DNA of 64,000 bases from Candidatus Poribacteria bacterium (GTDB lineage Bacteria; Poribacteria; WGA-4E; PCPOR2b): the NCBI GenBank assembly GCA_028819845.1, contig JAPPKS010000033.1, forward strand, positions 1 through 64,000, given 5' to 3'. A program made the position numbers and the translations under genes. Positions 8,681 through 50,898 of this stretch are shown here, piece by piece; the stretch's first letter is position 1; each line of letters opens with the position of its first letter. The notes under the pieces were generated by a model. It made no database searches, had not been told where the DNA came from, and saw nothing but the letters and a program-made list of their open reading frames with translations.

Positions 8681-9655
8681 ATGTCACGTATCTACAACTA
8701 TCTCGTTGAAACAGAACACGAAAATTTCCGGCTAGATCGGTTTGTAGACGAGCAGCATGTTCCTGGCCAGCCAAATCAGTTGTCCCGGTCAGCTATACAA
8801 AAATTAGTCCGCGGTGGCGCCGTCACAGTCAACGGTAAATCTGCCAAGCCTGGTCATAAACTTCGAGCAGGCGATCAAATCTCCCTCACCATTCCAAATG
8901 GCTCCGTGATGGAGTCTATCCAACCCAATCACATACCGCTCGATATTCTGTACGAAGATTCCGTCCTTATCGTCGTGAACAAACCCGCGGACATGCTTGT
9001 TCACCCTGCCGGCGGCGTCAACACCGGAACGCTTGTCAATGCCTTGCTTGCACACTGCGGGGTTTTGGCTCAAATTGGCGGCGCGGAACGGCCCGGTATT
9101 GTACATCGGCTCGATAAAAATACATCCGGCGTGCTCGTTGCGGCGAAGACCGGCCGTGCCCATCGTCATCTCTCGGCGCAATTTGAAGCCCATACCACCG
9201 TACGGGAGTATCTCGCTGTGGCTTGCGGCGTTCCAAAATCGGAGTCTGGCACAATAAACGCGCCCATCCGCCGCAGTCGCAGAGATCCGCGAAAAATGAC
9301 TGTATCGGTGGAGGCGGGTCGTCATGCCGTTACCCACTATCGTGCCCTCGAAATTTTTGGCAAATTTTCCCTCATTCAGTTGAATTTGGAGACCGGGCGC
9401 CTTCACCAAATCCGCGTGCATCTCAGCCACATCGGTTTTCCGGTTGCGGGTGATGCCGTCTACGGAGGAGGGCGGCGCCGTGCATTGCATAACGCCCATT
9501 CGCCCGCGTTGGCGGAGGCGTTTGCGAAGCTCAATCGCCAAGCCTTGCACGCGCGAACACTTGGCTTTAACCACCCTGAATCCGGCGAGAAATTGACGTT
9601 TTCGGCGCCGATGCCAATCGATATGCAGCGGGTTGTGGATGCACTGAGAACATGA
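8681..9655 (+). CDS. rluD: 23S rRNA pseudouridine synthase, RluD family
   Basis: 324 aa. The N-terminal S4 RNA-binding domain (about 15-75) contains SRSAIQKLVRGGAVTVNG. The catalytic domain has the HRLDKNTSG motif, with the nucleophilic Asp at residue 145, and the late GRLHQIRVHL block. This length and domain order fit RluD/RluC-type enzymes, which isomerise uridines in 23S rRNA; RluD is favoured for the S4 spacing, but RluC is possible. The ATG at 8681 has no strong ribosome site. A terminator hairpin follows the stop. Confidence 0.88.
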   Translation: MSRIYNYLVETEHENFRLDRFVDEQHVPGQPNQLSRSAIQKLVRGGAVTVNGKSAKPGHKLRAGDQISLTIPNGSVMESIQPNHIPLDILYEDSVLIVVNKPADMLVHPAGGVNTGTLVNALLAHCGVLAQIGGAERPGIVHRLDKNTSGVLVAAKTGRAHRHLSAQFEAHTTVREYLAVACGVPKSESGTINAPIRRSRRDPRKMTVSVEAGRHAVTHYRALEIFGKFSLIQLNLETGRLHQIRVHLSHIGFPVAGDAVYGGGRRRALHNAHSPALAEAFAKLNRQALHARTLGFNHPESGEKLTFSAPMPIDMQRVVDALRT

Positions 9656-21133: not shown

Positions 21134-21307
21134 TCTGGATTACAGTCCTTTCTTGTCATCATGAATGAAATCAGTTTCGGTCCATTACATTCCAAGGCCT
21201 CGCTGTAGTTTAGAATAAACGATTATTACCAGTTTTGTCAAGGTGCCTAGCGGCAGTACGATGGATTTGGTTTGATACCCATTCCTGTCGATTTTGAATC
21301 AAAAAAA

Positions 21308-21337
21308 TTGGACAAAGCCAATTGGTTGTGCTAAAAT
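21308..21337 (+). promoter_or_regulatory. Candidate promoter with a dyad in the spacer, block 1
   Basis: A -35-like TTGGAC (21308-21313), an 18-base spacer and a -10-like TAAAAT (21332-21337), 50 bases before the TTG start at 21387. The spacer contains the palindrome CCAATTGG (21318-21325). The same arrangement stands before block 2, where the palindrome has changed at symmetric positions. Confidence 0.5.
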
Positions 21338-21386
21338 ACAATGCTGTGTTGGCGAATTTTTGAACGTTTGAATGAGGTAAGGAGTC

Positions 21387-21689
21387 TTGCAAAAGGTTAA
21401 AATCCATTTTACTCCCATTCGCTGGGGGGTATTGATTGGAATCGTTTATTATCTGATAACGGTTAACCTTGTTGCACTTGTACACGACCATGAGCATGTT
21501 GATGTCAATTCAGAACAATGCTCTGCCTGCTTTTTCAATGCCAACCACGTCGGTATTGAACTCAACGCCGTTGACGTCACCAATCTTGCTGCCTGCATCT
21601 CAATTCATCAACCTATCACCGTATCTTTCATTTCTGCGATTCTTGACAAGGGCGTCCGGAGTCGTGCCCCGCCGACTATCCCCGTTTAA
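21387..21689 (+). CDS. Small membrane protein with His and Cys motifs, copy 1
   Basis: 100 aa from TTG 21387, with AAGGAG 6 bases upstream; copy 2 (43930) also starts with TTG in the same context. There is one transmembrane helix (about 12-30), then a periplasmic HDHEHVDV, an EQCSACFF pair and further His residues. The arrangement suggests metal binding, probably zinc or copper. I recognise no family. It is the first gene of a metal operon. The 3' part from 21576 on is identical to copy 2, while the 5' part has diverged. Confidence 0.65.
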   Translation: MQKVKIHFTPIRWGVLIGIVYYLITVNLVALVHDHEHVDVNSEQCSACFFNANHVGIELNAVDVTNLAACISIHQPITVSFISAILDKGVRSRAPPTIPV

Positions 21690-22663
21690 GTTGCTCAATA
21701 ATCTCATATCTCTGTTTTTTTGACCAAATCTTTATCTGTCTTTCCCGGCTGAGTTTTATACAGTCTCGGCAGTAGTCTGCTTGTTTTACGTTGTTTCGTC
21801 AGTCTTGATGCTTGGGAAATACAGTCTATCTATATCTGGAGGAAATAATGTTTAGGCCTGTTTTACGTTTTACGTTGTTGTTACTTGTATCGGTTGCACT
21901 GTTCGCCGCGTGCGGCGAAGACGACAATCCCATTGTCGAAAATGGCCATGACGATGAACCCTTTCATGCCGATGCAGACGGTTTTGTCCTCAAGGTTGAC
22001 GGAAACGAGATTTACCGTCAATTCGAGGGGACGCATACGGGAGGTATCACGCTCAAAGTCGGAGAGGAACTCGACGTTCTGACGGCGTTCCTTGACCACG
22101 ACAGCCATGAATTTTTTCCTGAGAATCCGGAAGAGGAAGACGACCACGACCATGAACATGGCGAGGAAGAGGTGTTTGCTTTAGCGCTCAGCGGATATGA
22201 TTCATCAATCATTGAGGTACACCTTTACCACGACGATCACGGTGAGCATGATGAACACGATGACGATCACGACGATGATGACGATCACGATGAGGGCGAT
22301 GATCACGACGATGACGATGAGCATGAGGAACACGATGAACACGGCGATGAGCTTGCCGAGCAATTCACCTTTGAGGTGGCGGGGCTTAAAGCCGGTCAAA
22401 CGGAAATTAAGCTCCAACTCATGCACGGCGACCATCCCGATTTCACGGCGGCGCTCTTGATTCCCGTAACGGTTACACCGTAACCGAAAACTTTGGTTTT
22501 GTCAGTCAGCGTGCCAAATCCAACGATAAATCCGGATTTGGCGCGCCGGACCGGCAAAGCGGATACCGGTAAAAGTAACGTATGACGTTAGGAGCCAATA
22601 ATTGAACAGATATCTGAATCACACAGTCGTGGACAATGTAGGCGCATGCTTGTCGTTTGCGTG
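21576..22663 (+). repeat. 1,088-bp exact duplicate, copy 1 (partner 44122-45209)
   Basis: Every base appears identical to 44122-45209 (constant offset 22,546). The tract begins inside the 100-aa gene, spans the whole His/Asp-rich lipoprotein gene, and ends 62 bases into the MerC-like gene. On both sides the two copies are related but clearly diverged. Confidence 0.9.
21848..22483 (+). CDS. His/Asp-rich metal-binding lipoprotein, copy 1
   Basis: 211 aa from ATG 21848, with GGAGG 7 bases upstream; an in-frame ATG at 21812 lacks a site. The lipoprotein signal ends in LFAAC (Cys about 19). A first His cluster (DDHDHEHGEE, near 98-107) and a long acidic/His stretch (about 127-168) interrupt a beta-rich domain, which resumes at EQFTFEVAGLKAGQTEIKLQL. 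It is probably a periplasmic zinc buffer or zinc-delivery protein, in the position held by ZrgA (DUF2796) in the Vibrio zrg operon. Sequence identity to that family is not established. The protein is identical to copy 2. Confidence 0.75.
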   Translation: MFRPVLRFTLLLLVSVALFAACGEDDNPIVENGHDDEPFHADADGFVLKVDGNEIYRQFEGTHTGGITLKVGEELDVLTAFLDHDSHEFFPENPEEEDDHDHEHGEEEVFALALSGYDSSIIEVHLYHDDHGEHDEHDDDHDDDDDHDEGDDHDDDDEHEEHDEHGDELAEQFTFEVAGLKAGQTEIKLQLMHGDHPDFTAALLIPVTVTP

Positions 22664-23000
22664 TGCCGTCCACTGTATGGCAGCCCCGCTCTTGATGACC
22701 GTATTGCCGCTGGTTGGGCTTGGGTTTATTCTCAGCGAGTCAGCGGAGTTGGCGCTGGTATTCGGCGCAGTGGGAGTTGCTGTGGGCAGTTTCACATGGG
22801 GCTATAGAAACCACCGAAAATGGCGAGTGTTTCTAATGCTCGGTGGCGCATTAACACTCATCTACATTGCACGGTTTCACGCATCAGAGGGGAGCGAAGT
22901 AATCTTCATGGCTATGGGCGGACTTCTGCTAGCAGTTGTTCACCTCATCAATCGCCGCCTCTGCCGTATGTGTCAACACTGCGAAACGTCGAACAACTAA
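22602..23000 (+). CDS. MerC-domain membrane protein
   Basis: 132 aa from TTG 22602, with TAGGAG upstream. Four transmembrane helices (about 15-35, 40-62, 68-88, 92-112). The CAVHCMAAP motif in helix 1 is the metal-site pattern of MerC-family transporters, and CRMCQHC near the C-terminus adds more cysteines. MerC was described for mercury uptake, but many relatives stand in zinc or iron loci. It ends with a stop 12 bases before the ABC ATPase start. Copy 2 of this gene has lost its stop and runs into a TonB-dependent receptor. Confidence 0.8.
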   Translation: MNRYLNHTVVDNVGACLSFACAVHCMAAPLLMTVLPLVGLGFILSESAELALVFGAVGVAVGSFTWGYRNHRKWRVFLMLGGALTLIYIARFHASEGSEVIFMAMGGLLLAVVHLINRRLCRMCQHCETSNN

Positions 23001-23012: not shown

Positions 23013-23675
23013 ATGCCGCTCTTGACAGTCGCTAATCTCGAAAAAGCCTATTGCTCGCCTGAAGGCACGCAGACTCGAGTCGTTGATGTGCCTCATTTCG
23101 AGCTGGAGGCAGGTTCGCAGACGGCGCTCAAGGGAAGCAGCGGCACCGGAAAAACCACGTTTCTCAATCTCATCGCTGGAATTCTGCACGCCGATAGCGG
23201 ACAGATCGTTATTGATGGTGAGGAGATGACCGGCCTCTCCGAGTCTGGGCGTGATTCACTGCGCGCCAGCCATATAGGCTACATCTTCCAGACCTTCAAT
23301 CTGCTCCACGGTTACACCGCATTGGAAAATGTCGTGCTCGGAATGATGTTTGGGAAGGGTGTTGATGTAGAGTTCGCCCAACACCTGCTTGAACGGGTCG
23401 GATTGGGCGATCGAATGGGATATCCGCCGTCGCAATTATCCGTCGGGCAACAGCAGCGTGTTGCGGTTGCCCGAGCTATCGCCAACCGTCCGCGCTTGGT
23501 GCTTGCCGACGAACCGACTGGAAATCTGGATTATCACCGCGCTAACGAAGCGATAGCGCTTGTCCGCGCGATTTGCCATGAAAACAACGCCGCGTTGCTC
23601 ACCGTTAGCCACGATGTCGGAATATTGGAGCAGTTTGAGGAGACAGCAGATTTCGCGCATGTGAATCGTGCGTGA
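23013..23675 (+). CDS. ABC transporter ATPase, LolD/MacB type
   Basis: 220 aa. Walker A GSSGTGKTT (about 42-50), Q-loop IFQTFNLL, signature LSVGQQQR (about 141), Walker B LVLADEP (about 160) and H-loop SHD. The short, single-domain form and the FtsX-type permease next to it place it in the MacB/LolD group, which transduces force to periplasmic partners rather than moving solutes through the membrane. In zrg-like operons a pair of this type is needed for growth under zinc limitation in Vibrio (from memory). Confidence 0.88.
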   Translation: MPLLTVANLEKAYCSPEGTQTRVVDVPHFELEAGSQTALKGSSGTGKTTFLNLIAGILHADSGQIVIDGEEMTGLSESGRDSLRASHIGYIFQTFNLLHGYTALENVVLGMMFGKGVDVEFAQHLLERVGLGDRMGYPPSQLSVGQQQRVAVARAIANRPRLVLADEPTGNLDYHRANEAIALVRAICHENNAALLTVSHDVGILEQFEETADFAHVNRA

Positions 23676-23793
23676 TCGCATAAAAAATGCGCCCGCCGCA
23701 TCAGCCGGCGAGTGTGCATATCCGAATCCCGCATTGAGCACGAACATGTGACACCGTACTGAAAATCCTGCGGCACAATATTCACGTGGAAAA

Positions 23794-25047
23794 ATGAAAA
23801 AGCGCATGAGTTTGTTATTCATCGTTCGACGCAGCCTGCGGCAACACGCCCTATCGACGCTTATCGCTGCGCTGTCGATAGCGCTCGGAACCGGACTCGT
23901 CATGGCAGTCATCGGCATCAAGGCGCAATCTGTAGCCGCATTCACGGGCGGTCAGATCGGCTTTGATGCGGTTCTCGGTGCGCGCGGCAGTCCGCTGCAA
24001 CTGGTATTGAACACTGTCTTTCATCTCGAAACCTCACCCGGCAATATACCATGGGCGATGTATCAGGCGATGAGAGACGACCCTCGCGTCGAACTCGCCG
24101 TGCCTTACGCACTCGGAGACAACTATCACGGATTCCGCATCGTCGGCACGACGCGGACGTTATTCACAGAGTTTGAGTACCGTGATGGCGTTCGGTTTCA
24201 AACTCAAGGCGGCGGACGTTTTTTCAATCCGGCTCGGCAAGAAGCGGTTTTGGGCAGCTACACCGCGGATAAGTTAGGCTTGAAGGTAGGCGATAACTTT
24301 AACCCCTATCACGGATTAGTATTTGATGAGTCAATGCGGCATGACGAGCAATATACCGTCGTCGGTGTGCTTAAACCGACCAATTCTCCGTCTGACCGCG
24401 TCATCTGGATTCCGATTGAAGGGATTTACCGGATGGAGGGGCATGTGTTGCGCGGAAGTGGGGAGGATTATGTGGCTGAACCAGGACGAGAGATTCCCGA
24501 CGAGCACAAAGAGGTCAGCGCCGTTATGTTGAAGTTTCGCAATCCGCAAATCGGATTCCTGATGGACGCCACAATAAATAAACAGGGTAAGGCGGCAACT
24601 CTCGCATGGCCGATAGGCGCGGTGATGGCGAGACTGTTTGATAAAATTGGTTGGATGAATCAAATTTTGGCGCTGGTTTCCTATATTGTTGTTGTGGTGG
24701 CGGCAGGCTCAATTCTCGCAAGCGTGTATAATTCGATTAACGAACGGCGGCGTGAGTTCGCCATTTTGCGATCGCTCGGTGCGCGTCGGAAAACGGTTTT
24801 TTCCGTAATCGTTCTGGAAGCCGCATCAATCTCGGCAATGGGCGTCGTCATTGGTTTCATCGTTTACGGCGTAATCTTCACGGCAGCGTCGGCGATTGTT
24901 CGTGCACAAACCGGAATCGTATTAGACCTGTTGAGTTTTCATCCTGCGTTTATCATCGCGCCAGTTTGTGTTATAATCTTAGGGGCAGTCGCGGGCGTTT
25001 TGCCCGCCGTCAAAGCGTATCGGACGGATGTTGCAGCAAACTTATAG
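23794..25047 (+). CDS. FtsX/MacB-type ABC permease
   Basis: 417 aa. The N-terminal helix is at about 18-38, followed by a large periplasmic domain (about 45-280) and three C-terminal helices. The cytoplasmic coupling loop NERRREFAILRSLGARRKTVF near 315-335 is diagnostic of the FtsX-like family. It pairs with the ATPase 118 bases upstream. It has no fused periplasmic peptidase or other domain. The cargo or partner is not visible, but all neighbours on this strand are metal-related. Confidence 0.85.
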   Translation: MKKRMSLLFIVRRSLRQHALSTLIAALSIALGTGLVMAVIGIKAQSVAAFTGGQIGFDAVLGARGSPLQLVLNTVFHLETSPGNIPWAMYQAMRDDPRVELAVPYALGDNYHGFRIVGTTRTLFTEFEYRDGVRFQTQGGGRFFNPARQEAVLGSYTADKLGLKVGDNFNPYHGLVFDESMRHDEQYTVVGVLKPTNSPSDRVIWIPIEGIYRMEGHVLRGSGEDYVAEPGREIPDEHKEVSAVMLKFRNPQIGFLMDATINKQGKAATLAWPIGAVMARLFDKIGWMNQILALVSYIVVVVAAGSILASVYNSINERRREFAILRSLGARRKTVFSVIVLEAASISAMGVVIGFIVYGVIFTAASAIVRAQTGIVLDLLSFHPAFIIAPVCVIILGAVAGVLPAVKAYRTDVAANL

Positions 25048-25225
25048 TCATTGCAACTAAAAATTATACATTTACGCATTTGTTTGTGGGAGAGGCTTCC
25101 TAGCCTCGATTATCAATCAGTCAATCTCTCCTTGTGCAAATATGAACCCAAATGACGATAACGCCAATTAGCTAACCCTCGCCGTTCGTATCCTGTGCCT
25201 CATTCGGTGGGGATTCCGGCCGTAG

Positions 25226-25360
25226 TTACACGAGGTCCGTTTGCCCCGTTGTTCCCTTTGTCAAGTAGTAAATATATTTATCCACATCACGGTCAAATTG
25301 CGCCGAAAGGGCACACCTGATGCGGCGAATTTCTTCAACCATGGGCGAGTCCTTAATCAT
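25226..25360 (-). CDS. Small 44-aa protein with a PMVEEIRRIR motif
   Basis: MIKDSPMVEEIRRIRCALSA opens the protein, followed by QFDRDVDKYIYYLTKG and a short tail. AAAGGAG lies 7 bases before ATG 25360, so the start is convincing. The 'P-x-V-EEIRRIR...F..D' pattern is common in very short antitoxin-like proteins of cyanobacteria and similar genomes. No toxin gene is beside it. It is antisense within the 437-base gap between the permease and the next lipoprotein. The rest of that gap holds only a TGTGGGAGAGG repeat at 25085-25115. Confidence 0.6.
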   Translation of the reverse strand: MIKDSPMVEEIRRIRCALSAQFDRDVDKYIYYLTKGTTGQTDLV

Positions 25361-25484
25361 TGGGTTCTCCTTTGGACGCATTTTCATACGCTATTGATAC
25401 CATATAAACGTGTTGAAACGTCTGAATTTTAGCGAAGCGTTTGACTTTCCCCATTAACACATTTTTGTAAAAGGAGGAATTCTC

Positions 25485-26006
25485 ATGAAACTCCAAAACG
25501 CAATCGCGGCATTGATGTCGATTTTAGCAATTGCCGTCGTCCAATCCGGTTGCGAGAAAAAAGGAACGCACGACGGTAAACAGAAGCCAGATGCCCACCA
25601 TCATCATACGGCGCCGCACGGTGGAGCACTCGTGGTGTTGGGCAAAGAGTTCGCGCACCTCGAATTTGTGCTGGAAGAATCAACCGGAAAACTCACTGGT
25701 TATGTCCTAGATAGCGAGGCGGAAAAACCGGTGCGCCTCACGCAGAACACCATCGAACTCAAATTAAATCGGTTGAAATCTGGGCAGTCAATTACTTTGC
25801 AACTCAAAGCCGCTGCAAACGTTTTAACAGGAGAAACCGAAGGTGATACCTCTCAATATGAGGGACAATCCGACGTGCTCAAGGGCATGACAGAATTTCA
25901 TGCGCAAATCGCATCAATTGCGGTGAAGGGTCAGCACTTCACTAAAGTTGATTTTGATTTTCCCGAAGGCAACGAGGGTGAGCACGGTGAACATCACGAA
26001 CATTAG
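25485..26006 (+). CDS. His-rich lipoprotein of the metal operon
   Basis: 173 aa. The signal ends in VVQSGC (Cys 23). A His cluster follows (DAHHHHTAPHGGALVVLG, about 34-52), then a beta-rich domain, and the protein ends in EGEHGEHHEH. The HTAPHGG motif is familiar from small metal-binding domains near heavy-metal transporters. Likely a periplasmic metal chaperone. AAGGAGGAA is upstream of the ATG. It is 16 bases before the DUF3299 gene. Confidence 0.75.
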   Translation: MKLQNAIAALMSILAIAVVQSGCEKKGTHDGKQKPDAHHHHTAPHGGALVVLGKEFAHLEFVLEESTGKLTGYVLDSEAEKPVRLTQNTIELKLNRLKSGQSITLQLKAAANVLTGETEGDTSQYEGQSDVLKGMTEFHAQIASIAVKGQHFTKVDFDFPEGNEGEHGEHHEH

Positions 26007-26022
26007 TTAGGAGGCGAATGCG

Positions 26023-26796
26023 ATGAAGCGGCTCAAAACGAAGGAACAAAGTGGCTCTTGGCTTCCTTTTGCAATTACAAGTGTAGTTGTTGTTGCGCTG
26101 GCACTCGGTCTTTCTCAAATGTTACCTGAACCACATCCAATTCGCGCCCTTAGGAAGGTAAGCGAGCAGTCAGCGTTGAACGCTAAACGTGTTGAGGTGC
26201 AGGGTGCCCCGCTCGCTGTCGCAGGATCTCGCGAGCCCAAAACGCAAGACCCGGCGAACCCCGTACCCGAGATTAGCGTGGATGCGCAGCCTAGCGCGGC
26301 GCCAGTCGCCAAACCGCCAAATGTCGGCAGCGAAAGGAGCGGCAAGCGCACTGGCGAATATGAATCACTGACCTTTGACACCCTCACTAGCTATCGAATC
26401 AGAGAGCCGAATTGGGCTAGATTGGACGATCCGGATTACGTCGCCGCGCTGAACCTCGACGAGGAAATTCCGACGCAAATCAGAGCGTTGAATGGGTCGA
26501 AAATTGAGATTGAAGGGTTCATGTTGCCGCTCGAGGGTGAATTCGATAACGTTCGAACTTTCGTGTTGCTCAAAGACCAAATGGCATGCTGTTTCGGCGC
26601 AATCCCGCTCCTTAACGAATGGGTGTATGTAGAGGTGCCGCAAAAAAAGAAAATCCGCAGTTATCAAGATGTGCCAATTTCGCTTCGCGGCACCTTTCGT
26701 GTTGGGCAAAAGTTTGAGGGCGATATACTTGTCGGCATCTACCATCTTGAGCTCGATCGTTTAAAAGCAGATTCACTCAAACTTCGTAAATCCTAA
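26023..26796 (+). CDS. DUF3299 protein, ZrgD-like
   Basis: 257 aa. It has one N-terminal membrane helix (about 15-33), a Pro/Ala-rich linker (60-110), then a DUF3299 domain (about 150-250) containing IEGFMLPLEGEFDNVRTFVL, the ACCFG motif and WVYVEV. DUF3299 is the ZrgD component of the Vibrio zinc-regulated zrg operon (from memory), and here it also sits with an ABC ATPase/FtsX pair. Periplasmic, anchored. AGGAGG precedes the ATG. Last gene of block 1. Confidence 0.8.
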   Translation: MKRLKTKEQSGSWLPFAITSVVVVALALGLSQMLPEPHPIRALRKVSEQSALNAKRVEVQGAPLAVAGSREPKTQDPANPVPEISVDAQPSAAPVAKPPNVGSERSGKRTGEYESLTFDTLTSYRIREPNWARLDDPDYVAALNLDEEIPTQIRALNGSKIEIEGFMLPLEGEFDNVRTFVLLKDQMACCFGAIPLLNEWVYVEVPQKKKIRSYQDVPISLRGTFRVGQKFEGDILVGIYHLELDRLKADSLKLRKS

Positions 26797-37770: not shown

Positions 37771-40700
37771 ATGACTTTTGCAAGGTCAATCAAATGTGTA
37801 TGCAAAATGATTATTTTGTTGAGCCTACTGTTCACCATGGACGTGCCGGAGACAGAGTCCGATGAAGACGAGATGGGCGAGGTGTTAATTGGCGAGGATG
37901 TGCGCGGGGTCGAGATTGGCGGTGATTATCTGTGGCTTTCAACCGGTGCCGGCGTCAGCAGGTACAATTTTGACGCGAAAACATGGGATTATTTCACAAC
38001 GAAGGATGGGCTCGTCAGCAATAAGGTGAATTGCATCGCTATTGAGTGGAAGCAGGGCGTGTTCGATCGAAAGCCGTCCGGGCGCGTGTGGTTCGGGACA
38101 GATTCCGGGCTATCGGTTTTTGACATGAACCGAGACGAATGGAGAAGCTATACCGTCAAGGACGGGCTGGTTGCAAACAAGATTCGGTGTATTTCAGCGC
38201 GCGGCGACTGGATCTGGGTGGGCACTGAAAAGGGGGCGAGTGCGTTTCAATTGAAGAAGAATCGGTGGCGTTCATACACAGACTTTTTGGGAATTAAAAC
38301 TCCATCCGTAACAGCGATTCATCACGATTCAAAGTACGTGTGGCTGGGAACCCCCGGCGGACTATCGAGATATAACGTTAAGTATGATAAGTGGGAGTAT
38401 TTCACCAAACAGAGTGCCTTTTGGGTGAGCACCCGGGGCGGCAATCGCTCGGTCCCGCGCCCCGGCCGGGAGATAGTGCCTAATTCGATTATGGACATTC
38501 TGGGCGATTCAATTACGGACATTGAAGCGAGTGGCGATAGTGTCTATATTGCGACGAAATCGGGGCTTGTCCGCACTATCAGCAAGAAATTTATGAACAC
38601 CACCGACCTCGCCAATGAGGATAAAGCCTATAGCAAACTGAAAGAACCGCAACATTTCTCGGCCTCTGTGCGGGCAAGAAATCGGCAATTTTCGCGGAAT
38701 CCAACGCGGGCTCAGGCGCGCGCTGCCGATTCGGAGTATGAACGCGCTATGCGTGCTTTCAACAAACGGGAGGTCGACACATGGAAAACGCTCGGCTGGG
38801 AGGTCTTCGTCCCGTCGAACGCCGTACAGAATCGTGATACCCAGGAGTTGATACCGAATCAGATTGCAGCCCTGGCAATCTCGGCGGGCCGAGTCTGGAT
38901 GGCGACGGGAAACGGACTCCTCAATTTCGACACAAAACTCGGAACCATGCAGTGGTTCCATCAAGATATGGGATTGGCATCAAACGAAATTAATTCTCTC
39001 GCGATCAAGGGAAACACCATCTGGATTGGAACTATACACGGACTTTCACAGTTTCACTCGGTTTCCGGCCGGTGGAAAACGTACCGTAAAGAGAAAGCGC
39101 TTCCCTCCGCGTATGTGCTGGCAATCGGTGAGGACACCGACGGCGTTTGGCTGGCGACTCAGAAAGCAATAAGTCGGTTTAATCCAAAAACCGAACGGTG
39201 GAAATCCTATACTAACGAAGATGGCTTGGGCGCCGGGGCTATCACCTGTCTTGATGTCGTGGGCAACTACGTATGGATAGGCAGCGACCGTGGAATTTCG
39301 CGGTTCGATAAATTCAACAAAACGTGGGATTACTTTCGCGCGGCGAAAAGTGGATTGGTTGCCGATGAAATTACGAAAATCCGGGTTGATGGTAAGTCGA
39401 TTTGGGTCGGCACCACACGCGGCTTAAACCGATACGACAATTCGACGCAAGAGTGGACCGCGTTCTCAAGTCGGTTAGGGTTATCCAATGACAAAATCAC
39501 AGACCTCGCCGCGGGTTCGCAATACCTCTGGGTTGGCACAGGTAGTGGGCTGTCTCGGTACGAAAAATCGGCGCAGAAATGGCGCACCACGCATGCCTTT
39601 GAAGGCATGCCTATTCTGGCTTTAGATCAATCCGGCGGTACCACCTGTGTCGCCACTGAAACAGGCGTTTATCTACACGACGATAAATCAGATGAAAACT
39701 GGCAAAAGCTGGAAATCGGCCGCGAAGCGAGTATTGATGTCGTCGCCCTGGACGACAGGGAAATTTGGGGCGGTGGTTGGCGAAATCTGATACGGTACGA
39801 CTTGGCATCCGGGCAAACGCGGGAGTTCACGGACGATGATGCGCCGGGTCTTTCAACAGTACGCATTCATGATATTCACCCGTCGCATGAATACGTCTGG
39901 GTTGCGACGGATGGCGGTATCTACCGGTACAACAAGCCCAACGATTCGTGGTGGGCATACGCCCCAAGCCGCGAGCGCGGTCATGAAGAAGTGCTTGTCG
40001 CCAAAGATATTCGCGCCATCGTCATCAACGATGATTACGCTTTTTTCGGCACGCCGCGGGGAATCAGCCGGTACGATAAAACGGCGGATACTTGGCTCAA
40101 CTATACAAATCGAGATGGGCTTCAACACAATTACGTGTCGAGTCTGTTGCTGTTGGAAAACGAACTGTGGGTCGGAACGCACGGCGGTGTCAGCCGATAC
40201 AACTGGGTCATAGACAGGTGGACATCCCTAACCACTGCCGATGGGCTTTGCGATAATCGCGTAAACGCGCTCGCGCGAGACGGAAACAGCGTGTGGATAA
40301 CCACACAGAGCGGTGTCTCTCGATTCGACACCAAGGCGGGGACCTGGCAAACGTTGACAAAAAAAGACGGGCTTCCCGATGATGTTGTTTGGTCGGTCGC
40401 GGTTGATGGGGATTACGTCTGGTTCGGCACAAATCAGGGAGCGGCGCAATACACACCCGGTAAGAGTCAGTGGGCGGTCTACACCACCGATGACGGCTTG
40501 ATCAACAACATCGTCACTTCAATAAATGTCGAAGAGAAGTACATCTTCCTCGCCACGCCGGGCGGTGTCACCATGTACGACAAGGAGGTCGAATCCCTGA
40601 CGCCGTATTCACAGGCGGATGGCCTCGCTGCCAACGACGCCAAAAGCATCGGTTCAATGGAGAAATATCACTGGATCGGCACCTCCGACGGCATAACGCT

Positions 40701-42120
40701 TTACAATCAGATCACTGACCTGTCCAGCGATTTCACCGAGGTGCATGGGCTCCCCTCCAACCACGTACAGGTCGTCGAGATTGACGGCGATGAAATCTGG
40801 TTCGGTACGAATGCCGGATTAGCGCGGCATCACTGGGTTAAGGGCGATTGGACAACCTATTCGGAAGCCCTCGAAGACATCGAATCAAATGCCTCGGCTT
40901 TGATTAGCAACAACATCAAAGCCGTTGCGTCGGATGGCGATTTTCTGTGGGTGGGTACTCGTCTCGGTTTAGCCAAATACGACAAGATCTCGCACTCTTG
41001 GCGAATTGCGAATGTAGGTTATCCACTTGATGACGCCGAAAATGAGGAGTTTGCCAATTTACAACGACGTGTAGATGAAAATGCACGGGCGGTTGAATCC
41101 GCTTTGCAAGCTAACAATCCCGCCCGGACGCGCAAGGTTTACGTTGATTACCATCCAGATGTCGCGCGCGAGGAGGCGATTGCAATCATTCAACGAATAG
41201 TTGAAGGTAGAACCCCGCAACCCGGCGACCCGACTGTGCCGTCGCCGCTCATAACAGTAAACGTCGAATTCCCGCCGATGCCGACCGTGCGAGCAATCGC
41301 CCCCGTCCTCGGCCAGCTCTGGCTTGGCACGGACGCGGGCGTCATCATCTACGATAAAGCCGCAAATGCGGCTAGGGAAATCCACCCACTCCTCCCGTGG
41401 GTGCGCCATATTCAGCCGCGAGACGGTAAGGTTTGGGTGCTCAGCGACAACCAAATCGCAATTTATGACCGGAAAGCGGACTCTTGGCTTTTGATAACGA
41501 ACGCTCAAATCGTTGAACATACACGCGTGCAGACCGGGGCTGGATTGACTGAAAGCTTAGAAACCACGCCCGAAGATTTAGGGATTGTAGGCTGCACCGC
41601 GATGGCGTTTCTAAACAATCAACTCTGGCTTGGACGGGAAATCGGATTGAAAGTTTTTGAAATAGATTCTCAACGACTGGCGCCGGCGAACACGTTTGAA
41701 GTGCCTTCATATCTTAAGAATGCCGAAATCACTGCACTGGCTTCTGACCCCGAAAACATGTGGGTCGGCACGAGACAAGGCGTATTCCGGTACAATGCGC
41801 CGCAAGGGCGGTGGGGAACGCTAACAGTGTTAGACGGACTCATCGGAAACGACATCAGTACAATCACTGCAGGCGAAAAATACGTCTGGGTTGGCACCGC
41901 TGGCGAAGGACTCAGCCGATACAACCGCGCCGAAGAACGGTGGGATGGATTCAACATTGATAATGGCTTATCCGACAACAACATCCGCAGCATTAGCCTG
42001 GACGGCAAATACGTGTGGGTAGGTACGTTTTCTGCTGGTGTGTGTCGTTATGATCTGTCTACAGAACTGTGGACAATATTCCGCACCGAGGATTATCGCG
42101 CGTACGCAAGCGAAAGATAG
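37771..42120 (+). CDS. Giant exported beta-propeller protein with 28 Reg_prop-like blades
   Basis: 1,449 aa with a signal peptide (about 1-25). I count 28 blades of the two-component-regulator propeller type, each with a W-V/I/L-GT...G-L/V-S-R-Y/F-D signature followed by W...Y/F and DGL. Examples are WVGTTRGLNRYD and WVGTHGGVSRYN. Twenty-eight fits four seven-bladed propellers. Two inserts break the series: a basic stretch (about 270-345) and a helical stretch (about 1090-1165). In Bacteroidetes hybrid sensors such propellers are followed by a membrane helix, kinase and regulator, all absent here. GGGAGA precedes the ATG. Confidence 0.88.
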   Translation: MTFARSIKCVCKMIILLSLLFTMDVPETESDEDEMGEVLIGEDVRGVEIGGDYLWLSTGAGVSRYNFDAKTWDYFTTKDGLVSNKVNCIAIEWKQGVFDRKPSGRVWFGTDSGLSVFDMNRDEWRSYTVKDGLVANKIRCISARGDWIWVGTEKGASAFQLKKNRWRSYTDFLGIKTPSVTAIHHDSKYVWLGTPGGLSRYNVKYDKWEYFTKQSAFWVSTRGGNRSVPRPGREIVPNSIMDILGDSITDIEASGDSVYIATKSGLVRTISKKFMNTTDLANEDKAYSKLKEPQHFSASVRARNRQFSRNPTRAQARAADSEYERAMRAFNKREVDTWKTLGWEVFVPSNAVQNRDTQELIPNQIAALAISAGRVWMATGNGLLNFDTKLGTMQWFHQDMGLASNEINSLAIKGNTIWIGTIHGLSQFHSVSGRWKTYRKEKALPSAYVLAIGEDTDGVWLATQKAISRFNPKTERWKSYTNEDGLGAGAITCLDVVGNYVWIGSDRGISRFDKFNKTWDYFRAAKSGLVADEITKIRVDGKSIWVGTTRGLNRYDNSTQEWTAFSSRLGLSNDKITDLAAGSQYLWVGTGSGLSRYEKSAQKWRTTHAFEGMPILALDQSGGTTCVATETGVYLHDDKSDENWQKLEIGREASIDVVALDDREIWGGGWRNLIRYDLASGQTREFTDDDAPGLSTVRIHDIHPSHEYVWVATDGGIYRYNKPNDSWWAYAPSRERGHEEVLVAKDIRAIVINDDYAFFGTPRGISRYDKTADTWLNYTNRDGLQHNYVSSLLLLENELWVGTHGGVSRYNWVIDRWTSLTTADGLCDNRVNALARDGNSVWITTQSGVSRFDTKAGTWQTLTKKDGLPDDVVWSVAVDGDYVWFGTNQGAAQYTPGKSQWAVYTTDDGLINNIVTSINVEEKYIFLATPGGVTMYDKEVESLTPYSQADGLAANDAKSIGSMEKYHWIGTSDGITLYNQITDLSSDFTEVHGLPSNHVQVVEIDGDEIWFGTNAGLARHHWVKGDWTTYSEALEDIESNASALISNNIKAVASDGDFLWVGTRLGLAKYDKISHSWRIANVGYPLDDAENEEFANLQRRVDENARAVESALQANNPARTRKVYVDYHPDVAREEAIAIIQRIVEGRTPQPGDPTVPSPLITVNVEFPPMPTVRAIAPVLGQLWLGTDAGVIIYDKAANAAREIHPLLPWVRHIQPRDGKVWVLSDNQIAIYDRKADSWLLITNAQIVEHTRVQTGAGLTESLETTPEDLGIVGCTAMAFLNNQLWLGREIGLKVFEIDSQRLAPANTFEVPSYLKNAEITALASDPENMWVGTRQGVFRYNAPQGRWGTLTVLDGLIGNDISTITAGEKYVWVGTAGEGLSRYNRAEERWDGFNIDNGLSDNNIRSISLDGKYVWVGTFSAGVCRYDLSTELWTIFRTEDYRAYASER

Positions 42121-43674: not shown

Positions 43675-43853
43675 GCCAACGCGCAAGCCAAATCCAAATT
43701 GGAAATAGTACAGCATTTTAGGAGAGACTGGATAGAAATCTTTTAATCTAAACTTTACTACCGATGACGGGTGAATCAACAATATCATTAGCTCAATCAG
43801 TGCGATGAATTGGCGGTCATACCCACTGGGTTCGATTTTTTGAAACAGAAAAA

Positions 43854-43883
43854 TTGGACAAAACCGATCGGTTGTGCTAATAT
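43854..43883 (+). promoter_or_regulatory. Candidate promoter with a dyad in the spacer, block 2
   Basis: TTGGAC (43854-43859), 18-base spacer, TAATAT (43878-43883), 47 bases before the TTG start at 43930. The spacer contains the perfect palindrome AACCGATCGGTT (43862-43873). Compared with block 1 (CCAATTGG), the two changed bases are symmetric, so the dyad has been kept. Confidence 0.55.
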
Positions 43884-43929
43884 ACTGTCCTGTGTTGGCG
43901 AATTTTCGTACGTATGAATGAGGTGAGGA

Positions 43930-44235
43930 GTGTTGCAGAAGATTAGAATCCACCCAAACAGCGTGGCCTGGGCAATAGCGATTGGAATCGTCTATTACCT
44001 GATAACGGTAAACCTTATCTCGCTTGCGCACGACCATGAGCATGTTGATTGCTGTTCAGAACGCTGCTCCGCCTGTTTCTTCAATGCCAACCACGTCGGT
44101 ATCGAACTCACCCCCGTTGATGTCACCAATCTTGCTGCCTGCATCTCAATTCATCAACCTATCACCGTATCTTTCATTTCTGCGATTCTTGACAAGGGCG
44201 TCCGGAGTCGTGCCCCGCCGACTATCCCCGTTTAA
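43930..44235 (+). CDS. Small membrane protein with His and Cys motifs, copy 2
   Basis: 101 aa from TTG 43930 with GAGGAG upstream. Same plan as copy 1 (21387): one helix, HDHEH, and a Cys cluster, here enriched to DCCSERCSACFF. The first 64 residues differ from copy 1 at many positions, while the last third (from base 44122) is identical. First gene of block 2. Role in metal binding inferred. Confidence 0.65.
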   Translation: MLQKIRIHPNSVAWAIAIGIVYYLITVNLISLAHDHEHVDCCSERCSACFFNANHVGIELTPVDVTNLAACISIHQPITVSFISAILDKGVRSRAPPTIPV

Positions 44236-45209
44236 GTTGCTCAATAATCTCATATCTCTGTTTTTTTGACCAAATCTTTATCTGTCTTTCCCGGCTGAGT
44301 TTTATACAGTCTCGGCAGTAGTCTGCTTGTTTTACGTTGTTTCGTCAGTCTTGATGCTTGGGAAATACAGTCTATCTATATCTGGAGGAAATAATGTTTA
44401 GGCCTGTTTTACGTTTTACGTTGTTGTTACTTGTATCGGTTGCACTGTTCGCCGCGTGCGGCGAAGACGACAATCCCATTGTCGAAAATGGCCATGACGA
44501 TGAACCCTTTCATGCCGATGCAGACGGTTTTGTCCTCAAGGTTGACGGAAACGAGATTTACCGTCAATTCGAGGGGACGCATACGGGAGGTATCACGCTC
44601 AAAGTCGGAGAGGAACTCGACGTTCTGACGGCGTTCCTTGACCACGACAGCCATGAATTTTTTCCTGAGAATCCGGAAGAGGAAGACGACCACGACCATG
44701 AACATGGCGAGGAAGAGGTGTTTGCTTTAGCGCTCAGCGGATATGATTCATCAATCATTGAGGTACACCTTTACCACGACGATCACGGTGAGCATGATGA
44801 ACACGATGACGATCACGACGATGATGACGATCACGATGAGGGCGATGATCACGACGATGACGATGAGCATGAGGAACACGATGAACACGGCGATGAGCTT
44901 GCCGAGCAATTCACCTTTGAGGTGGCGGGGCTTAAAGCCGGTCAAACGGAAATTAAGCTCCAACTCATGCACGGCGACCATCCCGATTTCACGGCGGCGC
45001 TCTTGATTCCCGTAACGGTTACACCGTAACCGAAAACTTTGGTTTTGTCAGTCAGCGTGCCAAATCCAACGATAAATCCGGATTTGGCGCGCCGGACCGG
45101 CAAAGCGGATACCGGTAAAAGTAACGTATGACGTTAGGAGCCAATAATTGAACAGATATCTGAATCACACAGTCGTGGACAATGTAGGCGCATGCTTGTC
45201 GTTTGCGTG
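44122..45209 (+). repeat. 1,088-bp exact duplicate, copy 2 (partner 21576-22663)
   Basis: Identical to 21576-22663 in all frames I compared, with sharp edges into diverged homologous sequence on both sides. This pattern is expected from gene conversion between older paralogous blocks. Confidence 0.9.
44394..45029 (+). CDS. His/Asp-rich metal-binding lipoprotein, copy 2
   Basis: 211 aa, identical to the protein from 21848, including the lipobox Cys, both His/Asp clusters and the C-terminal beta domain. GGAGG precedes ATG 44394. It lies between the small His/Cys protein and the MerC-receptor fusion. Two perfect copies of the gene in one window double the dose, with possibly different neighbours to deliver metal to. 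Confidence 0.75.
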   Translation: MFRPVLRFTLLLLVSVALFAACGEDDNPIVENGHDDEPFHADADGFVLKVDGNEIYRQFEGTHTGGITLKVGEELDVLTAFLDHDSHEFFPENPEEEDDHDHEHGEEEVFALALSGYDSSIIEVHLYHDDHGEHDEHDDDHDDDDDHDEGDDHDDDDEHEEHDEHGDELAEQFTFEVAGLKAGQTEIKLQLMHGDHPDFTAALLIPVTVTP

Positions 45210-47766
45210 CGCCGTCCACTGTATGGCAGCCCCGCTCTTGATGACGGTATTGCCGCTGGTTGGGCTTGGATTTATTCTCAGTGAGTTAGCGGCGTTGGCG
45301 TTGGTTGTCGGCGCAGTGGGAGTTGCTGTCGGCAGTCTATGTTGGGGATATTGGCACCACCGAAAATGGCGAGTGTTTCTAATGCTCGGTGGTGCATTAA
45401 CTCTAATCTTTATCGCACGATTTCACCCTTCAGTGGGGACCGAAGTCATCTTCATGGCTATGGGCGGACTGCTGCTAGCAGTTGTTCACCTCATCAATCG
45501 CCATCTCTGCCGTATGTGTCAACTCTGCAAATTGTCGAACAAGGTCAAAGAAATAACTCCAATTAAACTTTTTACGTTCTCTCTTTTTGCCATTCTTTTG
45601 ACGCATAATGTAGACGGATTGTCCGCGCCCCGCACCGTTTCCGTTTCAGGACAAGTGATTGACGCTGAGACGGAGAATCCAATCGCGGAAGTCGAGGTTA
45701 CCCTTATTGCTGCGGGAAGGACTATTCAGTCTCGAACTGATGAAACTGGGCGGTTCCAGTTTGGTCAAATTGCGATGGGGACACATGCGCTGCAATTCGT
45801 GTGCGTTGGCTATGAGGTATTAAATCAGAAAATTGATGTCAACGCGGATCCGATAAGGCTGGACGTAGAATTAAAGCCTAGTACGGTCCAACTCGGTGAA
45901 ATCATCGTCACACCTGACGATGACGAACTCGCTCGGTTTGAGAAAACTACAGACCTCAAACTCTCTGATCGGAAACTAAATCAGCAAATGGGCGCAACTA
46001 TTGCCGAGACCCTTAGTGGAGAGCTGGGTATCGCCCAGCGGACGATGGGGCGATCGACAGCACGTCCGGTCGTTCGGGGCATGGGAGGCGGTCGTCTGCT
46101 TATCCTAGAAGACGGTGGGCGTTCAGGCGATAAATCGGCTTCGTCTGCAGACCATGCGGTTGCGATTGACCCAACTACGGCGGCAAGGATTGAGATCACG
46201 CGCGGTCCGGCGTCGCTGCTTTACGGTTCAAGCACACTCGGCGGCGTCGTCAACGTCAAGCGCGAGACCATCCCGCAAACTCTCCCCAACCAGCCGACGA
46301 TGAACTTCACGTTTCAGAGTGAATCGGTAAACTCAGGGCTGACCGGAACAACAGGAGTAACGATTCCGGTCGGTAACCTCGCGTGGCGGTTGGAGCTGAA
46401 CCGCCGCCGCGCCGGCGATATTCAAACACCTGTCGGTACTTTGGAAAACACGTCGTTATCAAACACCAATTTTTCAACCGGTGCTTCAGTGGTAAAGGAT
46501 TGGGGGCACATCGGGATTTCCGGCGGCCGCTACCGTTCAGACTATGGAATCCCCGGCTCGCCCGAAGGCCACATCCAAGGTGTTACCATTGACCTCGATC
46601 GCCAACGGTATGAGGGCAATCTTGAATACGCGTTTGAGGGATCGTTTCTCGAAAAAATTAAGCTGCACTCGACCTACGCGCGCTACCAACACCAAGAGTA
46701 TGAATCCAACAACACGCTCGGCGTGGAGTTCGGTGTATTGACATACAACACAACCGCACTGCTGCACTTGCGCGGCGATGCAGTTGCAGGAATTTGGAGC
46801 GAGTATCGCGACCATGCCACGGGTGGGTTTTACTGGACACCTCACACCCGGGAGATATCTTTGGCGGGGTTCTTCTTCAAACAGAAGCGATACAACCACT
46901 TCACACTACAGGCAGCGCTTCGTTACGACGCGAAAAGGATTGAGCCGTTTGTCGAAGGTGTCGAAATACGTGCAGGAAAGGTACAGCAGCGCGACTTCGG
47001 AGGCGCGTCAGGTGCAGTCTCAAGCATCTATCAATGGAACGAAAACCTTGGGTTGGGCGCCACGTTCATGAGAACATTCCGCACGCCCGGAATTGAAGAA
47101 CTCTTTTCCGACGGTCCGCATCTCGCGGTATTTTCATATGAAATCGGCAACGCTGAACTCGGTTCGGAGGATGGCTTCGGTACGGAAGCATTTCTGCGCT
47201 ATTCAGGCAACCGTATGAAGTTCAATCTCGCCGTTTTTCGCAACCAGATTTACGGCTATCTGAGCCCGACCCAAACCGGGGAAAAGGAATGGGGTAGCGG
47301 CGCAGCAGGGTGGCTGTGGATATATCAATACCAGGGGCAAGACGCTATCCTCGACGGTGCCGAAATCAGTATTGACGCCGAAATTTTCCCGCGAATTCAT
47401 GTAGAGTCGCACATGAGTTACGTCAAAGGGTCTTTGGCGGCAAGCGGATTGCCGCTCGAACGCATCCCGCCCCTCAACGGAAGAGTGGCATTGCGATACG
47501 TTACCCTACCGTTAAATTTGCATTTTACAACGCGGTATTCGGACGACCAGCAGCGGCTCGGCGAATTTGAAGAAATGACCGGCGGGTACCTCGTCTACGA
47601 CGCCGGCTTGCAGGTGGTGTTCTCAATGTGGCAACTTCAACATCAATTTGTAGCCACTGTCGAGAATATATTCAATACTGAATACCGTCAACACCTTTCT
47701 AGAATCAAATCGGTGATGCCGGAGCCGGGGCGTAACGTCAAGATTCTATATCGGACGTTGTTTTAG
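45148..47766 (+). CDS. MerC domain fused in frame to a ZnuD-like TonB-dependent receptor
   Basis: 872 aa from TTG 45148. Residues 1-131 are the MerC-like four-helix protein of copy 1. The stop seen in copy 1 is missing, and the frame continues into a new signal-like stretch (KLFTFSLFAILLTHNVDGLSA, about 141-160), a carboxypeptidase-regulatory-like domain (about 165-245), a plug (RPVVRGMGGGRLLILEDGG near 307, RGPASLLYGSS near 352) and a beta-barrel ending in RTLF. Plug motifs resemble ZnuD-type zinc receptors. A TTG at 45532 could start a separate receptor with a good signal peptide, but I see no ribosome site there. Confidence 0.75.
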   Translation: MNRYLNHTVVDNVGACLSFACAVHCMAAPLLMTVLPLVGLGFILSELAALALVVGAVGVAVGSLCWGYWHHRKWRVFLMLGGALTLIFIARFHPSVGTEVIFMAMGGLLLAVVHLINRHLCRMCQLCKLSNKVKEITPIKLFTFSLFAILLTHNVDGLSAPRTVSVSGQVIDAETENPIAEVEVTLIAAGRTIQSRTDETGRFQFGQIAMGTHALQFVCVGYEVLNQKIDVNADPIRLDVELKPSTVQLGEIIVTPDDDELARFEKTTDLKLSDRKLNQQMGATIAETLSGELGIAQRTMGRSTARPVVRGMGGGRLLILEDGGRSGDKSASSADHAVAIDPTTAARIEITRGPASLLYGSSTLGGVVNVKRETIPQTLPNQPTMNFTFQSESVNSGLTGTTGVTIPVGNLAWRLELNRRRAGDIQTPVGTLENTSLSNTNFSTGASVVKDWGHIGISGGRYRSDYGIPGSPEGHIQGVTIDLDRQRYEGNLEYAFEGSFLEKIKLHSTYARYQHQEYESNNTLGVEFGVLTYNTTALLHLRGDAVAGIWSEYRDHATGGFYWTPHTREISLAGFFFKQKRYNHFTLQAALRYDAKRIEPFVEGVEIRAGKVQQRDFGGASGAVSSIYQWNENLGLGATFMRTFRTPGIEELFSDGPHLAVFSYEIGNAELGSEDGFGTEAFLRYSGNRMKFNLAVFRNQIYGYLSPTQTGEKEWGSGAAGWLWIYQYQGQDAILDGAEISIDAEIFPRIHVESHMSYVKGSLAASGLPLERIPPLNGRVALRYVTLPLNLHFTTRYSDDQQRLGEFEEMTGGYLVYDAGLQVVFSMWQLQHQFVATVENIFNTEYRQHLSRIKSVMPEPGRNVKILYRTLF

Positions 47767-48030: not shown

Positions 48031-50898
48031 ATGAAACTGATAAATGCGTTTCGCATGATGAAAACAACACCTCCGAATGCAACGTGGTTCTGTACGTTTA
48101 TATTGATAATGTACCTCAATTCATCTCTCATAGAAAGCACTGATGCGCAGGACGGCAATAAACCCGTTATCGCAATCGGCGGCGCCAACTATATTGTGGA
48201 GACGATTGATGTTCCCGGCGTGGAGTTTTTAGAGTTGACTGCGAGTAGCGACCGTGGGGATTTCGCGGGCAACACAAAAAGCGCTGATGGTGAAAAAATA
48301 ATCGGCTTTACCCTCATTGATGGTGAATTTTTGACGCACGATTTCCCCGACTCGCGGAACACCTATTTCTATGCGCTGAGTAATACAGGGATAGCTGCAG
48401 GCCACTACGAGGATAGCGATGGTCGGCTCCACGGTGTAATCTTAGAAAATGGCGTGTTGCGGCAATACGATTTTCCGGGTGCCGTCCAAACGGAGATATA
48501 CGGTATTAGTGATGCGACTGGCGCACTGACGGGTAATTTTATAGATGTTTCCGGGGTTCGCCGCGGATTCTCGGGCGATGAAGCAATTGAGTTCCCCGGG
48601 GCTTCAGAAACATACGCCGATTTCGTGAATTCCAGCGGTGGTATGGTGGGCAGCTACGTAGACGTTGATGGCTTATTTCATCCATACATTCGTACCCCGA
48701 ATGGCGCGTTTGTATCGCTCGACCTTTCACATGCCGAAAGACTGGAATTCTATTTTGTGCACGGTATCAACGATGCAACGGTTGTCGTTTCCCGAGCCAA
48801 ACCGGTGGATGGTGTCACACGTACCTATGTCGGCACGTTTCGCGACGGACTGCGGGAATTCACGGTTCCGAACAGCATTAGCACGGAGGGCTGGAATATC
48901 AATCAGGACGGGTCTATCGTCGGACACTATGATTCTGCGAATGGGCGCAGGCACGGGTTTTTCGCGAGACTCGCACCGAATCTACCGGCATTAACCGTTT
49001 CGATGGAGGGCGGCGTGGTACAACTGCAAGAGATTTTGGTCACGCCTGACGATGATGTCCTCGCTCAGCTTGAAATAACTACTAGCCTCGTACTCTCAGA
49101 GGAACAGCTGGATGCGAAGATGGGAATAACCATCGCCGATGCACTCCGCGATGAGGTGAGTGTCGCACAGCGGTCGATGGGGCGCGCCGTGGCGCGACCG
49201 GTCATCCGGGGTATGGGCGGTGACCGATTGCTCATTCTTGAGGATGGCGAGCGCACCGGCGATAAATCGGCGTCCGCAGCCGACCATGCGGTCGTGATAG
49301 ATCCGAGCACCGCAAAAAATATCAAGGTCATCCGCGGACCCGCATCGCTTATCTACGGTTCAAACACGCTCGGCGGCGTCGTAGATGTCAAACGCGAAAC
49401 CGTCCCGCGGACTTTGCCTCATCACCCTTCCGTAGACCTCAAGTTTCAGGGCGAATCTGTCAATTCTGGAATTACCGCGACAACAGGATTGACGATTCCA
49501 ATCGGGGACCTTGCGTGGCGATTGGCATGGAATCGCCGCTATGCCGACGATACGCGCACTCCCGTTGGTATCTTGGAGAACACCTCACTATCAAACACCA
49601 ATTTTTCAAGCGGCGCTTCCGTGGTCAAGAATTGGGGGCACCTTGGTATTTCGGGTGGGCGAAACCGATCAGATTACGGTATCCCCGGATCGCCGGAAGG
49701 ACACATCTCCGGAGTCAATATCGAACTCGATCGACAACGGTATGAAGGTAACTTTGAGTATTCAATCAATGGCTCGTTCTTTGAGAAGTTGAAAATTCAT
49801 TCAACTCACACGCGATATCAACATCAAGAGTTTGAATCCAACAAGACGCTCGGCGTCGAATTTATTGCGTTGACCACCAATGTGTCCGCGCTGGCTCATC
49901 TGTCTGATGACGCCATAACCGGAGTGTGGAGCGAATATCGCGATCATTCAACCGGCGGATTCTACTGGACGCCGCACACGCGGGAAATGTCTATCGCAGG
50001 CTTCTACTTCAATCAGAAGAAAGTTAGCGATTTCACGCTGCAAGGTGCGGTTCGCTACGACTTCAAGCGAGTTGAACCATTCACGACGGGAACAGTGACC
50101 GCGGCGGGAATAGTCCGTCGCCGAAACTTCGGAGGCGTGTCAGGCGCCGTGTCTAGCATCTACCATTGGACCGGCGGTTTGAAGGCGGGCGCAACGATGA
50201 TGAAAACCTTCCGCGCTCCAGGAATTGAGGAACTTTTCTCGGATGGCCCTCACCTGGCAGCCTACTCCTACGAAATCGGCAACTCTGAACTCGGCACCGA
50301 GAACGGCTGGGGAACAGAGGCGTTTCTGCGCTATAAGGGGAATCGGCTAAAACTGAATCTAGCAATTTTCAGCAACCAGATTTACGGTTACCTGATTCCG
50401 GCAAACACCGGTGAAAAGGAATGGGGCAGCGGTGCCGCGGGCTGGTTGTGGATTTACCAATACCGCGGACTGGATGCCGTCCTTGACGGCGCCGAGTTGA
50501 CCGTTGACGCCGAGATTGTGCCGCGAGTGCACGCGCAAGTGCGCACGAGTTACGTCAGAGGGACTTTAAAAGATAGTGAACTGCCCATTGAACGGATGCC
50601 GCCCCTCAACGGAAAAATAGCGCTCCGATACGCGACAGAGCCGTTGAACCTCCATTTGACAGCAAGATTCGCGGATTCGCAGCATCGGCTAGGCGAATTT
50701 GAGGAGCCTACTGACGGATACATCGCCTATGATATGGGCTGCCAGTATCTATTTTCGATTTGGGGGCTTCAACATCAAGCCGTGTTCGCAATCGAGAACC
50801 TCCTCGACACGGAATACCGTCAACACCTTTCGAGAATCAAATCGGTGATGCCGGAGCCGGGGCGTAACATTAAGCTTCTATATCGGACGTTGTTTTAG
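48031..50898 (+). CDS. ZnuD-like TonB-dependent receptor with an HAF-repeat N-terminal module
   Basis: 955 aa. Signal peptide about 1-38. Residues about 48-322 form repeats of the extracellular HAF type (GHYEDSDGRLHGVILENG, GNFIDVSGVRRGF, GSYVDVDGLFHPY), expected in the periplasm here. The plug starts near 330 with LQEILVTPDDDVLAQLE and contains RPVIRGMGGDRLLILEDG and RGPASLIYGSN. The barrel ends in RTLF. From the plug onward it is closely similar to the receptor at 45148, but the N-terminal domain is unrelated. ATG 48031 and 48055 are both possible; neither has a strong site. Confidence 0.8.
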   Translation: MKLINAFRMMKTTPPNATWFCTFILIMYLNSSLIESTDAQDGNKPVIAIGGANYIVETIDVPGVEFLELTASSDRGDFAGNTKSADGEKIIGFTLIDGEFLTHDFPDSRNTYFYALSNTGIAAGHYEDSDGRLHGVILENGVLRQYDFPGAVQTEIYGISDATGALTGNFIDVSGVRRGFSGDEAIEFPGASETYADFVNSSGGMVGSYVDVDGLFHPYIRTPNGAFVSLDLSHAERLEFYFVHGINDATVVVSRAKPVDGVTRTYVGTFRDGLREFTVPNSISTEGWNINQDGSIVGHYDSANGRRHGFFARLAPNLPALTVSMEGGVVQLQEILVTPDDDVLAQLEITTSLVLSEEQLDAKMGITIADALRDEVSVAQRSMGRAVARPVIRGMGGDRLLILEDGERTGDKSASAADHAVVIDPSTAKNIKVIRGPASLIYGSNTLGGVVDVKRETVPRTLPHHPSVDLKFQGESVNSGITATTGLTIPIGDLAWRLAWNRRYADDTRTPVGILENTSLSNTNFSSGASVVKNWGHLGISGGRNRSDYGIPGSPEGHISGVNIELDRQRYEGNFEYSINGSFFEKLKIHSTHTRYQHQEFESNKTLGVEFIALTTNVSALAHLSDDAITGVWSEYRDHSTGGFYWTPHTREMSIAGFYFNQKKVSDFTLQGAVRYDFKRVEPFTTGTVTAAGIVRRRNFGGVSGAVSSIYHWTGGLKAGATMMKTFRAPGIEELFSDGPHLAAYSYEIGNSELGTENGWGTEAFLRYKGNRLKLNLAIFSNQIYGYLIPANTGEKEWGSGAAGWLWIYQYRGLDAVLDGAELTVDAEIVPRVHAQVRTSYVRGTLKDSELPIERMPPLNGKIALRYATEPLNLHLTARFADSQHRLGEFEEPTDGYIAYDMGCQYLFSIWGLQHQAVFAIENLLDTEYRQHLSRIKSVMPEPGRNIKLLYRTLF

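Follow-up and report, generated by a model that had tools for sequence, protein, structure and literature searches.

The closest described systems to the locus discussed here are of several kinds. In Bradyrhizobium, the cytochrome b/c1 precursor fbcH is a polyprotein with an internal signal, and is cut into two proteins. ZnuD-type receptors and the MerC family (PF03203) provide named relatives for the two parts that are joined here, and the Zur-regulated genes PA4063-PA4066 of Pseudomonas aeruginosa have a reported role in pyochelin-cobalt export at zinc shortage (PMC11481552). In the window examined in this work (the whole stretch of 64,000 nucleotides that was analysed, from a Candidatus Poribacteria genome whose assembly comprises 4.6 Mb on 35 contigs), a MerC gene reads in frame into a TonB-dependent receptor, and this fusion is a real feature of the sequence at hand.

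The fused gene occupies 45148-47766 of the forward strand as a single open frame of 872 aa, with a TTG start and no internal stop. As the original prediction had described, the MerC frame runs on through an embedded signal-like segment, a CarboxypepD_reg-like domain, plug and barrel, and Pfam bears out this order with matches that are all above cut-off: MerC (PF03203) at residues 11-118 (E 1e-19, 71.6 bits against a cut-off of 27.6), CarbopepD_reg_2 at 166-254 (E 1e-14), Plug (PF07715) at 273-367 (E 3e-15) and the TonB_dep_Rec barrel (PF00593) at 441-823 (E 1e-25), the last two together identifying a TonB-dependent receptor. ZnuD is the best named match of the plug and barrel, both by profile search and by PDB sequence search (4rdr), at 184 bits versus an NCBIfam cut-off (NF038289) of 950, and hence the label ZnuD-like is used throughout. 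The named records nearest to the receptor are from Candidatus Poribacteria. The parts of the fused frame are as follows.

45148..45543, + strand: MerC domain with four hydrophobic segments (PF03203; hydropathy)
45562..45627, + strand: putative embedded receptor signal sequence IKLFTFSLFAILLTHNVDGLSA, matching the signal peptides of orthologues
45640..45909, + strand: CarboxypepD_reg-like domain (PF13715, PF13620)
45964..46248, + strand: TonB plug domain (PF07715)
46249..47763, + strand: TonB-dependent receptor barrel (Pfam, PF00593 match 46468-47616; ZnuD is the best named relative)

The MerC portion belongs to a leader module that is present twice in the window, and the two blocks align free of gaps over 1705 bp at 94.5% identity (blastn self-comparison, 21292-22996 and 43838-45542).

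21292..22996, + strand: block 1, copy 1 of the leader module (blastn self-comparison)
22602..23000, + strand: stand-alone MerC, 132 aa, with a TAA stop (block-1 ORF)
23013..26796, + strand: MacB-type ABC ATPase, MacB permease, His-rich protein and DUF3299, 3' of block 1
43838..45542, + strand: block 2, the duplicated leader module, comprising upstream region, small protein, His-rich lipoprotein and MerC (blastn self-comparison)
43930..44235, + strand: small protein (101 aa) that opens the module (ORF; no Pfam match)
44122..45209, + strand: 1088-bp run identical to block 1, taking in the ribosome site and start codon of MerC and extending over its first 20 codons (identity profile)
44394..45029, + strand: His/Asp-rich putative lipoprotein, its ATG at 44394 preceded by GGAGG (ORF)
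45542..45543, no strand: breakpoint, where the duplicated block gives way to receptor DNA (blastn self-comparison; identity profile)

Block homology stops at ...TCGAACAA, within the last MerC codon. After TCGAACAA, block 1 has C-TAA, which is the MerC stop, then the ABC ATPase, and continues into the MacB/His-rich/DUF3299 set; block 2 passes in frame into receptor DNA. The MerC of block 1 does end with a stop (TAA, 22602-23000), as predicted. The further statement that this stop had been lost in block 2 needs correction, as what lies there is the breakpoint of the duplicated block. A stop-codon mutation as the origin of the fusion is likewise ruled out, given that homology ends at the join and the stop was left behind.

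An identity profile across the two copies reveals a run of 1088 bp that is 100% identical (21576-22663 / 44122-45209), flanked by block ends that have diverged to 80% and 89% identity. The profile suggests an older duplication that was partly homogenised later by recent gene conversion. For an identity of this length between otherwise diverged copies, assembly collapse appears a less likely source than gene conversion. The Asp/His repeat region of the lipoprotein (44740-44905 and 22194-22359) is the same in both copies and varies in length among relatives. Elsewhere in the window, upstream of block 2, 37771-42120 encodes a 1449-aa protein with many beta-propeller-like repeats, and near the start of the window lie several copies of DNA repeats 88-269 bp long (4526-5100, 66-200).

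An exact repeat of 1088 bp in an incomplete assembly, together with the absence of the fusion from every other genome compared, is what one might expect if a sequencing or assembly error were at work, with MerC really ending or shifting frame near 45540 and the receptor forming a separate gene. We regard such an error as improbable. The exact repeat ends before the join, which falls within unique sequence; both parts are intact through 872 codons; and, with the native ATG of the receptor now ATT, a receptor split off by an indel would still lack a normal start. Mis-assembly at the identical 1088 bp is ruled out as the source of the join, because the 3' part of MerC beside the join differs between the two copies, although such mis-assembly could still swap sequence upstream of that point. 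Agreement of frame alone is weak evidence, because the prior for an in-frame join of two coding ends is about 1 in 3; more telling are the loss of the receptor's own start codon and the lack of ribosome sites at the internal starts.

The start codons that bear on the translation of the fused gene, and its ribosome site, are these.

45135..45140, + strand: Shine-Dalgarno TAGGAG of the fused gene (anti-SD energy -6.5)
45514..45516, + strand: internal in-frame ATG (M123) with no Shine-Dalgarno, also in the block-1 MerC
45532..45534, + strand: internal in-frame TTG (L129) with no Shine-Dalgarno, ACG in block 1
45562..45564, + strand: ATT (I139) where the ancestral start of the receptor stood, ATG in the genomes G005, G011 and G010

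Among the candidate starts of the frame, only the MerC TTG at 45148 has a good Shine-Dalgarno, with an anti-SD energy of -6.5 versus +1.4 at ATG 45514, -1.6 at TTG 45532 and -3.2 at ATT 45562 (background mean -2.8, s.d. 2.7). The MerC start and its ribosome site are identical between the two blocks, and 29 relatives conserve both the start (TTG, ATG in some) and a purine-rich site, in most cases AAGGAG or TAGGAG. In the Poribacteria genomes that were read, MerC mostly begins with TTG (22602, 45148 and the MerC loci L004-L031), with a strong ribosome site, and this use of TTG is conserved. The receptor's ancestral ATG-Lys has become ATT-Lys in the fused gene, as would be expected had the start shifted upstream; in the sister genus it is GTG-Lys, with a new start upstream. 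A promoter check upstream of the module found no conserved Zur-box-type palindrome; a putative -35/-10-like stretch is shared.

An internal start at TTG 45532, or else cleavage at the embedded signal, had been put forward in the original prediction as alternatives to a single chain. Both are sensible, but cleavage does not compete with a single chain, and the two in combination make up the best reading; the TTG exists as stated, the ATG at 45514 had been overlooked, and neither codon has a Shine-Dalgarno. An internal start would imply same-frame overlapping genes, in which the receptor mainly begins at TTG 45532 or ATG 45514 with an ordinary N-terminal signal peptide and the long chain is a by-product. 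That M-SNKVKEITPIKLFTFSLFAILL.. resembles a normal signal peptide, that the codon TTG 45532 arose only in the fused copy (it is ACG in block 1 and mostly Thr in relatives) and that TTG starts are usual in this lineage all lend this arrangement some credit. It nonetheless seems to us rather unlikely, as besides the lack of ribosome sites, ATG 45514 is older than the duplication, standing also in the block-1 MerC with no receptor behind it, and is not conserved in relatives, and coupling through MerC termination is impossible with no stop before either codon.

Simple hydropathy places the four segments of MerC near residues 26-44, 47-65, 76-94 and 98-116, and a Lys/Arg-rich tail follows them, such that by the positive-inside rule the MerC C-terminus would lie in the cytoplasm. 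The topology rests on hydropathy because confidence in the AlphaFold model is too low: for the 872-aa chain with five sequences, mean pLDDT is 31, and only the CarboxypepD domain (about 163-243) is folded. The reading we favour, with a confidence that is evenly balanced, is that translation from the MerC start is followed by internal signal cleavage, which releases an ordinary receptor. Under this reading, the three-gene leader module would have been copied and its end fused in frame to a ZnuD-like receptor gene, whose own start the MerC start of the module would have displaced. The gene would be translated from the MerC TTG as one precursor, computed at 96 kDa, the MerC part would insert with its C-terminus in the cytoplasm, and the old receptor signal would serve as a fifth, outward-going segment. 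Signal peptidase would then cut on the periplasmic side, yielding MerC with a short tail (computed at about 17 kDa) and a mature receptor of about 79 kDa bound for the outer membrane. If the gene is translated as read, targeting of the receptor would begin with an inner-membrane part, and an outer-membrane receptor would be using a signal buried behind a four-segment inner-membrane protein. Some points weigh against this reading, namely the occurrence of the fusion in one genome, the changes in the MerC of the fused copy, which are few in number, and a proline at the likely -1 site. Pro161 stands where relatives carry a likely -1 Ala, and cleavage would therefore be pushed to another site (between VDG and L, or between GLS and A).

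Were the chain to remain uncleaved, an inner-membrane metal carrier, MerC, would be covalently tied to an outer-membrane receptor, and metal uptake might be coupled across both membranes. A permanent chain of this type had been raised at the outset and has gained no positive support. The one open frame would accommodate it, and Pro161 weakens the cleavage site known from relatives, but other cleavage sites adjoin that residue, and the few residues between signal and CarboxypepD domain leave little loose chain to span the periplasm. Given also that the MerC part bears signs of relaxed constraint, and that no homologue among 85 genomes has this architecture, we hold a two-membrane protein to be very improbable.

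The two parts of the fused gene have distinct substitution patterns. The receptor, compared with that of G005, has diverged by 0.18/0.12/0.46 at codon positions 1/2/3; it is under purifying selection and, because of this, is presumably made. In MerC, the fused copy has 10 non-synonymous against 4 synonymous changes, and copy 1 has 2 against 4. The fused copy also carries E49A at a residue that is invariant in 29 homologues, with cysteines kept and no damage to the frame. These changes, small in number, hint that the MerC function of the fused copy may be weakened, and that this part is perhaps becoming a mere leader.

The comparison set comprised 85 genomes of the phylum, with the fusion's own genus represented by one genome. 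The Pfam model gave 52 MerC matches, of which the one at 45178, in the long frame, is fused; the proposed search for the same fusion in relatives thus returned no other instance. One scan of genome contigs found two receptor relatives, neither of them fused. Relatives in the family and the order carry MerC as a gene of its own, with 132-136 codons where read and open frames up to 172. Full-length receptor orthologues have frames of about 756-816 codons, and the frames beyond this range are those of the fused gene (872), the second receptor of the window (965) and a receptor of the genome G012 (1003), the latter two with another extension. In the sister genus, the small protein, lipoprotein and MerC come first; the MacB-type ATPase, the permease, the His-rich protein and DUF3299 follow, and beyond one more gene lie a second small protein and the receptor; in another family the receptor is followed by MerC and then by a ZnuA-like gene.

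Receptors of related genomes have also acquired new 5' ends. In the four sister-genus genomes checked, the receptor leader is a copy of the MerC leader, at 70-86% identity, and a copied lipoprotein start in that genus, MFTCFFR.. (ATG, with GAGG upstream), reads in frame into the receptor signal. In G012, a copied start of the lipoprotein leads into a second receptor type, and in G005 the receptor has its own ATG, after a complete lipoprotein gene. In light of the sister-genus and G012 captures, the fusion in the window is seen as one of several ways in which receptors of a zinc-starvation cluster, as read from sequence, have undergone recurrent 5'-end capture. It clearly illustrates an evolutionary route that recurs, on which receptor genes of one zinc-type cluster repeatedly gained 5' ends from copies of the same leader module and the old start codon decayed afterwards.

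The G012 receptor (L052, reverse complement, 6613-9552) opens with a copy of the neighbouring lipoprotein's start codon and the codons just after it. The window itself holds a further receptor.

48031..50898, + strand: second ZnuD-like receptor, with a different, apparently captured N-terminal part (Pfam)

Residues 18-312 of this second receptor align at 48% (E 8e-81) with the N-terminal half of a G005 protein (L051, 2267-4078), which is a separate secreted protein of 603 aa with a C-terminal sorting-type domain. The extension of the second receptor (48031-50898) would be another in-frame 5' capture, shared with G012.

Zinc shortage is the likely setting of the locus, because of the ZnuD relationship of the receptor and the set resembling PA4063-PA4066, and zinc would then be the probable substrate of the receptor. 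We saw nothing that points to mercury, and the surroundings suggest zinc. Like ZnuD-type receptors, the receptor has a zinc association, in that an orthologue in a relative adjoins zinc genes (at L033 it lies directly 5' of ZnuA, which is followed by CobW); unlike them, the fused protein carries a CarboxypepD_reg domain and MerC in front. The MerC part is akin to its family in having a domain above cut-off, four hydrophobic segments and retained cysteines, whereas its position in a zinc-type cluster, with no mer operon, and its joining at the C-terminus set it apart. The set after block 1 appears comparable to PA4063-PA4066 (PMC11481552), with a His-rich metal protein, a MacB exporter in split form and one more periplasmic protein; the Poribacteria set differs in having MerC and a small protein in front, the comparison being at the level of the operon. 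The fused gene departs from the fbcH precursor in that its exported part is an outer-membrane receptor and its cleavage is putative; it resembles that precursor in that a polytopic inner-membrane protein, whose end would be cytoplasmic, precedes an exported protein that brings a signal of its own, and in that one open frame, seen in the MerC-receptor gene, runs through both parts.
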